Notes under the pieces: model-generated
Told to the model about the DNA's origin: nothing
Seen by the model: only the letters and a program-made list of their open reading frames with translations
The model's database searches: none
Shown here: piece by piece, positions 1,733 to 28,488 of the stretch
Numbering within the stretch: position 1 is the stretch's first letter
Layout of the letters: every line of letters starts with the position of its first letter
Program-made: the position numbers and the translations under genes
Assembly: GCA_903960845.1 (NCBI GenBank)
Contig: CAJCCF010000025.1
Coordinates: 1 to 34,181, forward strand
Length of the DNA stretch: 34,181 bases
DNA from: an uncultured Verrucomicrobiota bacterium
Lineage (GTDB): Bacteria > Verrucomicrobiota > Verrucomicrobiia > Verrucomicrobiales > Verrucomicrobiaceae
Direction: 5' to 3'

Positions 1733-4267
1733 ATGTCCGCCCCCCGTCCAGCCCCAGAGATTCGTGACCATGAGACACTGCGCCTGATCGGCCACGGTGC
1801 CTATGGTGAGGTGTGGATGGCGCGCTCCGCGACCGGTGCATTGCGGGCGGTGAAAGTGATCTGGAGAGAGGATTATGATCACGCCGACTCCTTTGAGCGC
1901 GAGTTTGAGGCGCTCAAACGCTTCGAACCCATCTCGCGCCGCCATCCAGGCTTGGTGCCCATCCTTCAAGTGGGGCGCAGTGATGCGCAGGGTTTTTATT
2001 ATTACGTGATGGAGCTGGCGGATGATCTGGAGCGCGGGCGGGACATCGTGCCGGAGTCCTACAAGCCGCACATCCTGGGTTTACAGATGCGCCGGGAGAA
2101 GCGCATCAAAGCCGCGCGTTGTTTGCAAATCGGCTCCAATGTCGCTGAAGGCCTGCACTACCTGCACGAGAACAAACTCATCCACCGCGATGTCAAACCT
2201 TCCAACCTCATCTTCATTGATGGTGCATGCCGGCTGGCCGACATCGGACTGGTCGCACTGCTTGGGCAGCGCAGCTTCGTAGGCACCGAGGGTTTTGTGG
2301 CACCGGAAGGCCCAGGCTCGCCGGAATCAGACATTTTTTCTCTCGGCATGGTGCTCTATGAAGCCAGCACGGGAAAGGATCGCCTCGACTTCCCGGACAT
2401 TCCTTCATGCAGCGAAGCGGGCGAAAGTCTGGATGTCTGGCAGCGGCTGCACCGGGTGATCTGCACCGCCTGCGCTCCAAAGGCCAAGGACCGCTACGCC
2501 AGTGCCCATGAAATGGCGCTCGATTTGCAGGGTCAGCCCCTTCCATCATCCCGGCGGGCCGCGTGGCAATGGGCTGCCGCCGGAGCCGTGGTTCTTGGAC
2601 TCGCCGTGGGATTTGGCATGTGGCTGGCGCAGAGAGAATCCGGCGTGGAAAAGGTGGCTGTGCAAAAAGGCACTCCCATGCTCATGATCACCACCGAGCC
2701 ACCGGGAGCGCACGTGTATGCCGGTGAGGATGACCTCGGCACCACGCCTCTGCGATTAAATCCTGAGGAAGGCGTGCCTGTAATCTACCAGCTCCGTCTG
2801 CCAGGCCACAAGCAACTGGAGATCGAACACTCGGCCAACCGCGCCAAGCCCGCAGAATATGATCTCGTGCTCGAAGCCACCAAATTACCGCAACCCGGCG
2901 AACGCTGGGTCAACAGTCTGGGCATGACTTTCAAACCAGCGCCCGGTGGTCACATCACCGTCCAGCCCGCGGAGATCAAACATTTCAAACGTTTCCTCGA
3001 AGCCACAGGCCGTTCATTCGAAGGCAAAGTCGTGCGTGCCTCCGCAAGCAAGGACAGCGCCTACTTCATCGTCGTGCCCGTTGGTGATTCAGAAGCCTTC
3101 CGCTACTGGCTCACCGACATCGACCGCAGTGCCGGATTCCTCAGCCAGGAGCACCACTATGAAGTCGAGCCGTTCTACTATGTGGACAGCACCAACCCGG
3201 CGGCGGACGACATGCCTGACGAGCGCGAACCAGAGACAGCCAACGGTTCTGAAAAATCCGACTGGCAGGCCTTCCACTTGCGCGTCGTTCGGCAGACCTA
3301 TGGCAGCGTCATCATCCGCAGCACACCGGAAAAAATTCGTGTCTTTCAGCATGATGAATTTCAGGGTTACACACCACTGGAGTTGCCGCGCGTGCGCAGC
3401 GGTTTGGTGGAGTATGAGTTGAGGGAGGAGGGTTTCTCCGACGTGGTTCTGGAAGGTGACGTCCGGCCGGGTGAGTTGCTGGAACTTTTCTCCGACATGC
3501 AAACACGTCAGGCGGTGACCTTCGGACGCGAATGGAGGGCGAACGCGCTTGGCATGAAATTTGTACCGCTTGTGGAAGGCATCATGATCGCCGCCACTGA
3601 AACACGCCGGCGTGATTACCTGGAATTTGTGAAGGCCACGAACGGCCGCAAACCAGGCAACATGGACCTCGAAGGCAAAGGCGGGACTCAGCCCGTCGTT
3701 GCCGTGGATCGTGAGGAGGCGCGCGCCTTCTGTGCCTGGCTCACCGAACACGAGCGCAATGCGGGGCTGATCGGAGCCAAGGATCTGTACCGTCTCCCCA
3801 CTGATGAAGAGTGGAGCAGAGCCGTGGGCCTGCCCCTGGAGCGTGGAGCCAATCCGAGCGAACGAAGCGGGCGCATCCGCGGCATCTACCCGTGGGGCTT
3901 TGACTGGCCGCCCCCGGAGAATGTGGACAATTTCGCCAACATGAACGCCAGCCGGAGAGCCAATCTGGAAAACGTCATCCCCGGATACGAGGATCACTTT
4001 CCCCAGTTGGCTCCCGTGGGTGCGTTTGCACCCAATGAACGCGGCATCATCGGCCTGGCAGGCAATGCTTCCGAGTGGGTGGACACGGACTTTGAAGCCA
4101 CCAAGAATGCGGATGTCAAAACGAAGAGCAACCTCGGCACCGTACGTGGCGGCAACTGGCGCAGCGCGAACCCCGACGAATTGCTTTCATCTGCCCGCAC
4201 CCCCGTGCCGCCAGACACCAAACGACCCACAATCGGCTTTCGCATCGTGCTGGAACGGAGGAAGTAA
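1733..4267 (+). CDS. Transmembrane Ser/Thr kinase with duplicated PEGA and FGE-like domains
   Basis: This is an 844-residue receptor-like kinase. The cytoplasmic kinase domain (about 15-270) has the glycine loop G20-G22-G25, VAIK-type lysine K41, HRDVKPSN (D153) and DIG instead of DFG (D170). The metal-binding Asp is kept, so activity is plausible. One membrane segment (277-298) follows. The outer part reads PEGA (about 316-383), a degenerate FGE-like half (389-485), an acidic linker, a second PEGA (518-590) and a fuller FGE-sulfatase/SUMF1-like domain (598-843). The latter shows RLPTDEEW, YPWG, GNASEWV and VRGGNWR..GFR. The FGE active-site cysteines found just before the terminal GFRC motif in true formylglycine-generating enzymes are absent, so this is probably a sensing or carbohydrate-binding version of the fold. 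It follows the sulfatase by 54 bases, perhaps co-transcribed. Ligand and phosphorylation targets are unknown. Confidence 0.92.
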   Translation: MSAPRPAPEIRDHETLRLIGHGAYGEVWMARSATGALRAVKVIWREDYDHADSFEREFEALKRFEPISRRHPGLVPILQVGRSDAQGFYYYVMELADDLERGRDIVPESYKPHILGLQMRREKRIKAARCLQIGSNVAEGLHYLHENKLIHRDVKPSNLIFIDGACRLADIGLVALLGQRSFVGTEGFVAPEGPGSPESDIFSLGMVLYEASTGKDRLDFPDIPSCSEAGESLDVWQRLHRVICTACAPKAKDRYASAHEMALDLQGQPLPSSRRAAWQWAAAGAVVLGLAVGFGMWLAQRESGVEKVAVQKGTPMLMITTEPPGAHVYAGEDDLGTTPLRLNPEEGVPVIYQLRLPGHKQLEIEHSANRAKPAEYDLVLEATKLPQPGERWVNSLGMTFKPAPGGHITVQPAEIKHFKRFLEATGRSFEGKVVRASASKDSAYFIVVPVGDSEAFRYWLTDIDRSAGFLSQEHHYEVEPFYYVDSTNPAADDMPDEREPETANGSEKSDWQAFHLRVVRQTYGSVIIRSTPEKIRVFQHDEFQGYTPLELPRVRSGLVEYELREEGFSDVVLEGDVRPGELLELFSDMQTRQAVTFGREWRANALGMKFVPLVEGIMIAATETRRRDYLEFVKATNGRKPGNMDLEGKGGTQPVVAVDREEARAFCAWLTEHERNAGLIGAKDLYRLPTDEEWSRAVGLPLERGANPSERSGRIRGIYPWGFDWPPPENVDNFANMNASRRANLENVIPGYEDHFPQLAPVGAFAPNERGIIGLAGNASEWVDTDFEATKNADVKTKSNLGTVRGGNWRSANPDELLSSARTPVPPDTKRPTIGFRIVLERRK

Positions 4268-25958: not shown

Positions 25959-26867
25959 TCACCGCTTCACACTTCTCCACCCCAGAATCCCGCAGAGGCC
26001 AAAGCCAAAGACATTCAGTGAGCCATGGATCATCCACATCTGCGGCATGGTCAGCGCCGCCCATGGCAGCAGATGGCGCAGACCAAAACCGAGCGCGAGA
26101 ATCATGGCCGCCATCGAAGCCACGCCTGAAACTGCAAACAGCAACCGATGCGGCCACAGGAGTCCTGCCCGGCAAGCTTGACGCAGTTGCAGTCCCGCCA
26201 CCACCAGACTGCCGAGCACGAGCAAGGCCACACCCATCGGCTCCACCCAGGGCAACCATCCAAAGTGAGTGCAGGTGATCCCCACCGCCACCAGCGGCAC
26301 GCCGGCCAGAATCGCCCCGCATGAAAACCGCGACCAGCCGCCGGGACGGCTCTGCCCATGCAATCCCGCGATAAGCGGCAGGGTGAAACCTGCGTGATGA
26401 AAATGCGCCGCAGTCAGCAGCACGATGAGTGGATCAAAACCAAATGGCGTCCAGTTTCCCCGATGCGCCACCAGCCATGCCGCGCCGATGGCCGGGAATA
26501 CCCGCGACGCCAGCACACAGATCTGCCCAAGTGACAGCGAACCTCTAACTTCGCGCACCGCATCAAAGGCTGCGAGCAGTCGCACCGCCAGCCACGGCAA
26601 GGCCAGCGCAGACGTGCTCATGGTCGGTTTCCAGCAAAACGAAAGCCCGAGCATGATCGCCGCCGCCATTGAAGCCAGTTCATGCTCTCCCGCCAGTGCA
26701 GGCGCAGCCACCAGCCGCCGGGATAGCGGCATCAGAACCAGTGGCGAAAACATCAGCAGCAATACAATCCAGGACTCGCTCCCCTGATCGAGTTGCATCA
26801 GCGCCACGAAAGCCAGCCAGAGTGCCGCACCTAGAATTTTCAGGGAGAGTTCAAGTTTCAAAATCAC
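25959..26867 (-). CDS. YndJ-like integral membrane protein
   Basis: This 302-residue protein is almost entirely hydrophobic, with about eight to nine membrane segments. The stretch LTAAHFHHAGFTLPLIAGL closely resembles the His-rich signature of Bacillus YndJ, and the end HGSLNVFGFGLCGILGW also fits. Function is unknown. The start is GTG at 26867 (ILKLELSLK follows), overlapping the stop of the DUF1990 gene by 4 bases (GTGA), so the two are translationally coupled. YndJ and DUF1990 are found adjacent or fused in other bacteria, which supports both calls. Confidence 0.8.
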   Translation of the reverse strand: MILKLELSLKILGAALWLAFVALMQLDQGSESWIVLLLMFSPLVLMPLSRRLVAAPALAGEHELASMAAAIMLGLSFCWKPTMSTSALALPWLAVRLLAAFDAVREVRGSLSLGQICVLASRVFPAIGAAWLVAHRGNWTPFGFDPLIVLLTAAHFHHAGFTLPLIAGLHGQSRPGGWSRFSCGAILAGVPLVAVGITCTHFGWLPWVEPMGVALLVLGSLVVAGLQLRQACRAGLLWPHRLLFAVSGVASMAAMILALGFGLRHLLPWAALTMPQMWMIHGSLNVFGFGLCGILGWRSVKR

Positions 26868-27436
26868 ATCCAGGGTTCAGGGTTCGCCACCGCAGTCACC
26901 ATCCTGTTTTGCGAGTCCCTCACAAACCGGCACTGCCACCAGCGCGCCAGAGGAAAACCCATCCAGGCTAGCCAGTGCCGGGGCCGCGAGAAAGCGCGGA
27001 TCACATACCAAACCGATCCATCGGGATGCCGCTCGATCACAAACTGCTCCTCACCGCACTCCGCATGCTCAGGCAGAGTGCCATAGACAAACCCATGACG
27101 TTGATCGCTGTCGCAGCGGCGCAGGATGCGGCACGGATTCACCCACCACAGGCCGCCAATGCGCGTCACCATCGCCACGATCACACCCGGCGTTTGCGGC
27201 GATCCGGCGGGGTGCACCATCGCCCACGGCGGAAACATGATCCACGAATCCAGCGCAGCACAGGCCGCATGGTGCACAGCTTCACCATGGCCCAGCCTAA
27301 CCAAATGCACATCCGCGATGAATCCCGGCTGTCCGGCTTTTTGCAAAGACCTCGACTCATAACTCAGCGGTTCATTCTGCCACGCACGCAGCCATTCGAT
27401 CACAAGCAGTTCTCCGGGACGTTTCAGCAGCAGCAT
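26864..27436 (-). CDS. DUF1990 family protein
   Basis: This is a 190-residue DUF1990 protein. The C-terminal part is the clearest: YGTLPEHAECGEEQFVIERHPDGSVWYVIRAFSRPRHWLAWMGFPLARWWQ. The N-terminal LSYESRSLQK also fits the family. The frame is open upstream to GTG 27577, but ATG 27436 (MLLLKRPGELLVIEW) begins the homologous part, and the upstream residues show no likeness. The fold is believed to be a lipid- or small-ligand-binding one; no activity is established. It is coupled to the YndJ-like membrane protein by a 4-base overlap. Confidence 0.78.
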   Translation of the reverse strand: MLLLKRPGELLVIEWLRAWQNEPLSYESRSLQKAGQPGFIADVHLVRLGHGEAVHHAACAALDSWIMFPPWAMVHPAGSPQTPGVIVAMVTRIGGLWWVNPCRILRRCDSDQRHGFVYGTLPEHAECGEEQFVIERHPDGSVWYVIRAFSRPRHWLAWMGFPLARWWQCRFVRDSQNRMVTAVANPEPWM

Positions 27437-27621
27437 GGCAGAAATTACCGATTCCAAGCCAGCGCGCAAAAGCAGATTTGGCTCATGCAGAGCGCGGACT
27501 TCAGTCTCGGCACGGTGTTGAGAGTTTACTGTTGAGCGCCTGAAACGAAAACCGTTCGAGCCACCACAAGCTCTCACCTCTCATCCACGAACACTCGGCT
27601 CGGGTTTGCTATTCACCGACA

Positions 27622-27676: not shown

Positions 27677-27772
27677 CATCCTCGAGCAAGACGCTGATGG
27701 TAGGGCGGTGATCCTCATCCGCCGCTCGGGGACGGCGCTTGGAGGACCAAGCGCCCTACCTAACGGTGCGCC
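27677..27772. repeat. Structured intergenic repeat, copy 1
   Basis: This 96-base unit is a direct repeat of 27862-27958, with seven substitutions and one indel by hand alignment. It has an outer inverted pair GGTAGGGC/GCCCTACC, an imperfect first inner hairpin GGCGG..CCGCC and a perfect second inner hairpin GGCGCTTGG/CCAAGCGCC around AGGA. Together they could fold as a three-way junction in RNA or single-stranded DNA. It has no coding capacity and resembles a REP- or MITE-like element. Confidence 0.75.
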
Positions 27773-27861
27773 CCCTCGGAGCGCGCGTATGGCGCAGCCT
27801 ACTCGCCAGGAATCTGCCGGCGGAGATGCGGCCTGCGGAACACACGAAAGACACGGAATAG

Positions 27862-27958
27862 CATCCTCGAACAAGACGCTGATGGTAGGGCGGATGATCC
27901 TCATCCGCCGCTCAGGGACGACGTTTGGAGGACCAAGTGCCCTACCCAACGGCGCGCC
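27862..27958. repeat. Structured intergenic repeat, copy 2
   Basis: This 97-base unit is the second direct copy of 27677-27772, 89 bases downstream of it. Its first inner hairpin is perfect (GGCGGATGA/TCATCCGCC around TCC). The second inner stem keeps pairing mostly through G-U wobbles. It ends 20 bases before the stop of the thioredoxin-like gene, so it may be transcribed as that gene's 3' end. Confidence 0.75.
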
Positions 27959-27978: not shown

Positions 27979-28488
27979 CTACTTCGCCAGCAGAGCCTCC
28001 ACCTGGGCCTCCAGGCCGCTGCGCGCGTTGGTGGTGACCAGTTTGCCTTCCTTGTCCACCAGCCACATCGCCGGAACGCTGCGGACTCCGAAGTGCGTGG
28101 AAATTTTATTCTCCCAGCCCTTGCCGTCGAAATACTGCGGCCAGGTCATGTCTTTCTCTTTGATGAATTTCGTCAAGGCTCCCCTGTCCTGATCGAGTGA
28201 GATCCCGATGATCTCAAAACCTTTGTCATGAAGTTTTTTGTAGGTTGCCACGACGTTTGGCACTTCAGCCACACAAGGCGGGCACCAGGTGGCCCAGAAG
28301 TCGATGAGGACGACCTTGCCCTTCATCGTGCTGAGATCGACCTTGCCGCCTTTGACGGCATTGAATTTGAGCACCACGGGCTCACCCACGGCGGGAGCCG
28401 CTCCTTTTTTGTCCGCCGCAAATCCGGGGATCGAGAGTAGAAAAGCAGCGATGCAGACAGTCAGGCTGGAGGATCTTTTGTTTTTCAT
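27979..28488 (-). CDS. TlpA/ResA-like thiol-disulfide oxidoreductase
   Basis: This 169-residue exported thioredoxin-fold protein has a signal peptide (about 1-25, cleavage near GFA|A) and the AhpC-TSA/TlpA core VVLIDFWATWCPPCVAEVP. The redox pair is C69/C72 in a CPPC motif. The cis-proline loop is SVPAMWLVD. Proteins of this type reduce disulfides outside the cytoplasm, for example during cytochrome c maturation, though CPPC alone does not fix the partner. The frame runs back to 28668, but ATG 28488 gives a proper signal peptide. The 3' side carries the second structured repeat. It is divergent from the HAD gene. Confidence 0.88.
   Translation of the reverse strand: MKNKRSSSLTVCIAAFLLSIPGFAADKKGAAPAVGEPVVLKFNAVKGGKVDLSTMKGKVVLIDFWATWCPPCVAEVPNVVATYKKLHDKGFEIIGISLDQDRGALTKFIKEKDMTWPQYFDGKGWENKISTHFGVRSVPAMWLVDKEGKLVTTNARSGLEAQVEALLAK

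Follow-up and report, generated by a model that had tools for sequence, protein, structure and literature searches.

GTAG-tagged REP pairs behind a redoxin-like gene of a Prosthecobacter-like bacterium

The closest described systems to the repeat analyzed here are the GTAG-tagged REPs, a superfamily treated by Di Nocera et al. in 2013 (PMC3733652). These REPs have a GTAG tag, short loops and stems of mostly 6-9 bp, they form HH and TT dimers, include heterodimers and show alternative complementary stem residues, and they are placed behind genes, with some in-frame intragenic copies; a position between co-directional genes, near the 3' end of the upstream gene, is a common case. The paper states that most families prefer heterodimers, with no obvious explanation. 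It also reports GTAG repeats from the PVC group, and describes the verrucomicrobium O. terrae as highly GTAG-enriched and as having the most intragenic GTAG copies; Prosthecobacter is not mentioned in the main text.

Two other systems are useful for comparison. The REPINs of Pseudomonas (Bertels and Rainey 2011, PMC3116915) are inverted REP doublets with a spacer, for which two folds are given, one long hairpin and, less stable than it, a "clover" (Figure S11 legend), the "clover" being the form thought to be read by the transposase. Their tandem clusters consist of a flank f1, the REPIN and a shorter flank f2, with unrepeated DNA between the units (Figure S7 legend). In two group 3 TnpA-REP systems, from Stenotrophomonas and Marinomonas (PMC8266576), the enzyme works only on a stem without breaks and depends on certain bases of the loop; strand choice and cut site are influenced by the tag.

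Throughout this report, "the window" designates the whole analyzed stretch of 34,181 nucleotides, contig CAJCCF010000025.1 of an uncultured Verrucomicrobiota bacterium. The repeat that this Prosthecobacter-like bacterium carries is real and of a known type, the GTAG-tagged REP pairs. A preliminary description of the window had reported a pair of 96-97 bp repeats, and both were recovered, copy 1 at 27677-27772 (96 bp) and copy 2 at 27862-27958 (97 bp). In a whole-genome DNA search, copy 2 matches copy 1 at 92% and E 6.6e-33, and the repeat pair is therefore not a product of chance. Their alignment gives 7 transitions, 0 transversions and 1 internal indel, in agreement with the differences already described (transitions only, seven, plus one indel). 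Each copy consists of two facing hairpins on opposite strands, with GTAG at each foot and the tags outermost. The hairpins consist of the GTAG tag and a 9-bp stem closed by a TCCY loop, or by TCC in some copies, and in all four window hairpins GTAG stands immediately before the stem. Each copy is a REP dimer (BIME/REPIN), of the HH type as defined by Di Nocera et al., and both units were also found to be HH pairs with R1, a covariance model of the hairpin. The features of the locus are collected in Table 1.

Table 1. Parts of the two repeat units and the neighbouring genes. Positions are those of the window; R1, covariance model of the hairpin.
Feature	Position	Strand	Evidence
Left flank f1 of copy 1	27677..27698	+	Common to copy 2 and one other genomic copy (C311)
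REP 1a, GTAG tag and first hairpin (GGCGG-TGA tcc TCATCCGCC), one base deleted, decayed	27700..27723	+	R1 match 27698-27725, E 0.013; deletion polarised with the C311 copy
REP 1b, GTAG tag and perfect 9-bp hairpin GGCGCTTGG-tcct-CCAAGCGCC	27734..27759	-	R1 E 9.5e-9
Right flank f2 of copy 1, short	27761..27772	+	Copy comparison
DNA separating both units, unrepeated	27773..27861	.	Repeat comparison
Left flank f1 of copy 2	27862..27883	+	Copy comparison
REP 2a, GTAG tag and perfect 9-bp hairpin GGCGGATGA-tcc-TCATCCGCC	27885..27909	+	R1 E 7.0e-6
REP 2b, GTAG tag and second hairpin, decayed (three derived transitions)	27920..27945	-	R1 match 27918-27947, E 0.023
Right flank f2 of copy 2, short	27947..27958	+	Copy comparison
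Thioredoxin/redoxin-like gene (context, outside the element)	27979..28488	-	PF08534 78.5 bits, PF00578 76 bits
DUF1990 gene, next co-directional gene (context)	26864..27577	-	PF09348 136.6 bits

Half of the window hairpins (2 of 4) are decayed, and the hairpin scan and R1 agree with the earlier observation that copy 1 has the perfect second inner stem and copy 2 the perfect first one. The direction of the changes in both copies was polarised with a third copy, located on contig C311. The 22-bp left and 12-bp right flanks accompany the dimer in 3 of the 10 aligned places of the own genome, namely both window copies and the one on C311. The order of f1, dimer, shorter f2 and unrepeated DNA is like that of the Pseudomonas tandem clusters, and the inverted doublet with its spacer is like a REPIN; unlike in the Pseudomonas REPINs, the partners here have differing stems, and both the hairpin sequence and the RAYT (REP-associated tyrosine transposase) are others.

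The distribution of the repeat was analyzed by DNA similarity and with R1, which was built from 21 hairpins picked for pairing and whose E-values are rough. The own genome contains 6 places at E<1e-6 by DNA search, both window copies counted, and R1 finds at least 19 hairpins at E<=0.03, spread over 9 contigs and including all four window hairpins; the latter count, a lower bound with 150 of 3321 candidates scored, is modest. DNA similarity gave matches in 16 of 37 genomes (own included), all of one genus. With R1, 31 of 39 genomes of the genus (own included) match at E<=0.01, with at least 95 matches in the richest genome, and at least 39 of 189 genomes of the order (own included) match at E<=1e-4, all of these being lower bounds from the scoring of up to 150 candidates per genome in the own genome and the genus and up to 39 in the order. 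The repeat is thus not confined to the two window copies, nor to a single strain. A search of a plasmid collection with the repeat gave no match.

Since the hairpins behind R1 were selected for pairing, pair counts taken from R1 rows alone would be circular, and a pattern search with shuffles served as the control. A pattern specifying only the tag, the loop and GGC/GCC ends found 200 matches in 8 genomes, against 1 in the reversed control, and all six free stem positions are Watson-Crick paired in 123 of the 150 matches listed, which include none from G000 or G023. Among the 39 distinct hairpin sequences, found by a pattern that demands no pairing in the six free positions, 13 are fully paired, whereas 1000 shuffles gave 2.5 on average and never more than 8; the remaining sequences mostly lack a single pair. 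Eight fully paired stem types occur, with a constant tag and loop. At the level of sequence comparison, the stem is shown to change in a paired manner with tag and loop constant, and the paired changes across the family support the view that the folded single strand is under selection. Selection on folded structure had been suggested before on another ground, namely that the changes in the second stem of copy 2 are partly kept as G-U pairs. That stem has two G-U pairs and one A-C on the + strand, and one G-T and two A-C on the opposite strand. Over the 39 distinct hairpins, the non-Watson-Crick transition pairs, summed by hand, are 7 G-T and 9 A-C, as expected from plain decay; the G-U argument therefore fails across the family, and selection on the single strand is supported by the paired stem changes instead.

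The preliminary description had further proposed that each copy can form a three-way junction. Its outer inverted pair, GGTAGGGCG/CGCCCTACC, does exist, because the two tags are inverted, and past GGTAG/CTACC it competes with the two hairpins. With RNA parameters, the long hairpin, the junction and the two hairpins with free tags are predicted at -35.9, -32.3 and -28.5 kcal/mol for copy 1 and at -27.8, -23.5 and -19.7 kcal/mol for copy 2, the long hairpin beating the junction by 3.6 and 4.3 kcal/mol, respectively. With DNA parameters, the same three folds of copy 1 are all within about 1 kcal/mol (-19.5, -18.4 and -18.9 kcal/mol), and the best fold of copy 2 is the one with free tags (-14.7, against -14.6 with a tag helix and -10.4 kcal/mol for the simple junction). 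The single-hairpin fold is the minimum-energy structure of both cores with RNA parameters, and of copy 1 only with DNA parameters. Compared with shuffled sequences, the cores fold with z -4.1 (copy 1, DNA and RNA) and z -2.8 (DNA) and -2.4 (RNA) for copy 2; for the full units of copy 1 and copy 2, the values are z -3.0 and -2.1 (DNA) and -2.4 and -2.0 (RNA). In these models the three-way junction is a possible, accessible fold, neither clearly favoured nor proven. It resembles the "clover" of the REPINs, which also have the long hairpin, but it is less stable than the long hairpin in RNA and nearly equal to it in DNA.

In two relatives, G012 and G041, genes of 181 and 192 codons, respectively, lie between GTAG/TCCY hairpins. 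The G012 gene was first traced from a low-ranking row of a Y1 search (G012:C65), amid R1 matches. The products of both genes match the NCBIfam profile REP_Tyr_transpos at 93 and 97 bits (cut-off 80). The nearest solved protein to the G012 product is the E. coli RAYT (TnpA-REP) 4er8, both by sequence (E 4e-8) and as the best structural match of its predicted model (pLDDT 84, E 6e-10). H96, H98, Tyr149 and the motif W-Q----D-H--R are invariant in the 19 aligned members of the clade; one locus, L169, which has a stop codon, was left out of this alignment and of the structure prediction. The gene of the relatives thus has what defines a RAYT, i.e., the HuH motif, the catalytic Tyr and the REP_Tyr_transpos profile. 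In the E. coli enzyme, the residues involved at GTAG include W94, Q95, E100, H101 and R104, and D replaces E in some subclasses (PMC6006769).

Proteins closely related to that of G012 (65-70% identity) are present in G041, G045 and G047, so that 4 of the 39 genus genomes have the clade RAYT, and in all 4 of them R1 matches occur on both sides of the gene, weaker ones in G047 (best 3.4e-5). A named collection contained 29 relatives, 22 of them in records titled Verrucomicrobiota. A tree of 73 RAYT-like rows places the 15 rows that have strong matches in their flanks (E<1e-4) all in one clade of 22 rows (SH-aLRT 97), and none of the 51 rows outside it has a flanking R1 match at E<=0.01; the strong-match label requires 5 changes on the tree, compared with 13.8 in shuffles. 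"Strong" was defined after the flank matches were known, and the three loci with weak matches (L169, L175 and L178) among the 7 of 22 clade rows without strong ones count as "other". The tree comes from a quick search, with SH-aLRT as its only support value and a midpoint root; eight duplicate loci (two identical pairs stayed), loci below L066 and hits of <80 residues were left out, and rows L068-L087 were labelled by hairpin scan and then checked with R1, with no match. We know of no biochemistry for this RAYT clade.

Outside the genus, the RAYT loci of Opitutaceae/Opitutia MAGs (L170, L171, L174 and L180) are alike in that hairpins with the tag, a 9-bp stem and the TCCY loop flank the gene on either side. 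Their RAYT is 45-54% identical to the Prosthecobacter one, and the loci differ in having one stem type, GGCGCGTTA, and a single hairpin on each side. PMC3733652 names families 17, 19 and 20 for O. terrae, and one of the O. terrae families may correspond to the TCCY-loop hairpins. Among the papers listed for REP, REPIN or RAYT in combination with Verrucomicrobi-, Prosthecobacter or Opitutus terrae, none was seen to treat the family described here.

In the own assembly, sequence and clade-profile searches of the 774 contigs did not find the clade RAYT: the best own match reaches 36 bits, whereas the same query scores 271-425 bits with the four clade members, and the best matches to the clade profile, on C472 (46 bits) and C433 (42 bits), are both outside the clade in the tree; the RAYT-like gene on C433 has its own REP type. 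The REP-associated transposase that the preliminary description had proposed to search for was thus found as a cognate RAYT in relatives and not in the own assembly. The missing gene may correspond to an assembly gap. Because no clade RAYT was found in the own assembly, the window copies are probably orphans, leftovers that are now decaying. G002 (at least 95 matches) and G023 (at least 80) likewise yielded no close relative of the clade RAYT, and copy number is therefore not simply RAYT-dependent. Perfect stems account for 18 of 26 hairpins in G044, 29 of 37 in G002 and 2 of 3 in G047, too few genomes to link them with RAYT presence. Neither the ORF list nor tblastn revealed a RAYT in the gaps between the REPs of L112, L113 and L118. 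In relatives (L024, L111 and L123), REP pairs also form tandem arrays, with a spacing of 157 bp (G041:C63) or 161 bp (G023:C2).

We consider it highly probable that the window copies are REPIN/BIME units forming a small tandem cluster behind the redoxin gene, of a family whose dimers a clade RAYT would move in trans; the local copies are probably orphaned. The REP-type nature already suspected from the window is confirmed by the tag at the hairpin foot, the inverted pairs, the dispersal and the cognate RAYT of relatives. In the proposed mechanism, the RAYT would bind the single-stranded hairpin on the GTAG strand, recognising the tag and the loop and requiring an intact stem, whatever its sequence, and would then cut the hairpin and mobilise the dimer in trans; the tandem pair would have arisen by local duplication of one unit plus its flanks. 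The combination of a fixed tag and TCCY loop with freely exchanged, paired stems fits the logic of the group 3 enzymes, a likeness by which no group is assigned to the clade.

Other origins were weighed against this one. The repeats might be kept as RNA structures in the 3' UTR of the redoxin gene, stabilising the mRNA or stopping its decay, with mobility being incidental. As already described, the units lie beside the 3' end of a gene: both occupy the gap between the co-directional redoxin-like and DUF1990 genes, directly behind the redoxin stop codon, which is 20 bp from copy 2. A weak terminator-like site is found on the same, minus strand at 27673-27656; it lies beyond both REP pairs, so that transcription of the redoxin gene may run through them and place them at the 3' end of its mRNA. 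In RNA, the long hairpin is clearly favoured. The family hairpins are, however, scattered over many other places, some of them within long open frames, their wobble pairs are not commoner than A-C, two of the four window hairpins score low with R1, and an Rfam scan found no match above the gathering score in the window. An RNA role as the reason for their maintenance thus appears improbable, and any influence on the 3' end of the redoxin mRNA would be secondary.

Movement by an ordinary TnpA, the repeat being a MITE of another transposon family or an IS200/IS605-type leftover, seems very unlikely, even though the genus has many Y1 transposases, IS200-type ones among them. The GTAG/TCCY hairpins flank RAYT-type genes of one clade, and the scan found the hairpin at only one of the top 30 Y1 loci (L044, about 430 bp from the gene); R1 found it at 0 of 26 other RAYT-like loci (L134-L159) and at 0 of 19 further Y1 loci. 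The IS200-like Y1 genes, which by rank make up most of the top 30, were rejected as partners; apart from L044, the 30 loci have other tags or none by the scan. Finally, the local duplication of a chance palindrome that belongs to no family would explain why the copies share their flanks; this origin is refuted by the additional copies in the own genome and by the matches in the genus, and we give it practically no weight.

Under the preferred reading of RAYT-mobilised REP dimers, the composition of the pairs deserves a comment. In the fetched genus loci, 20 of 21 adjacent pairs are HH or TT, and the close pairs (gaps up to 60 nt) combine two different stems in 21 of 21 cases; this count covers hairpins passing the scan with 9-bp stems, its tandem copies are non-independent, and many of the loci were drawn in by similarity to the GCTTGG hairpin. 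A tentative idea, which we regard as rather doubtful, is that one clade RAYT ignores the stem sequence and serves many stem types, and that close pairs in the genus have different stems perhaps since identical partners would form a long perfect cruciform, removed by the cell. Against it, L172, which is outside the genus, has two pairs with the same stem, about 100 nt apart. If the idea is true, the family would offer a natural case for testing what makes REP heterodimers predominate.

The window copies are outside genes. Among 38 repeat clusters in the fetched loci, 10 are within frames that stay open for 150 codons or more in either direction, a criterion of frame length, and "extragenic" is therefore only partly true of the family. 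Such copies were observed in L005 (own contig C413), L012, L018, L020, L021, L022, L028, L030 and L034; they would add peptides such as GRAAGPPAA...TALGGPSALP (translations of three), and we have the impression, no firmer than that, that they sit at linkers.

The window feature itself is thereby explained as ordinary. The analysis connects one RAYT clade in Verrucomicrobiota with a type of REP hairpin whose tag and loop are fixed and whose paired stems change freely. For this phylum, the literature searches listed little on REP/RAYT, PMC3733652 being the main source found. The family supplies natural substrates for testing what a RAYT reads, and the genomes with and without the RAYT are material for studying the decay of REP populations. 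Beside the clade RAYT of L167, at 3594-3725, another GTAG hairpin (GTAGCGCTACTTTG) is repeated in tandem with a unit of 21 bp. Other RAYT-like genes have their own, different GTAG/GTGG hairpins (L073, L075, L082, L085, L087, L134, L143, L149 and L182), and several REP/RAYT systems therefore coexist; one of these loci, L087, is from the window's own genome.
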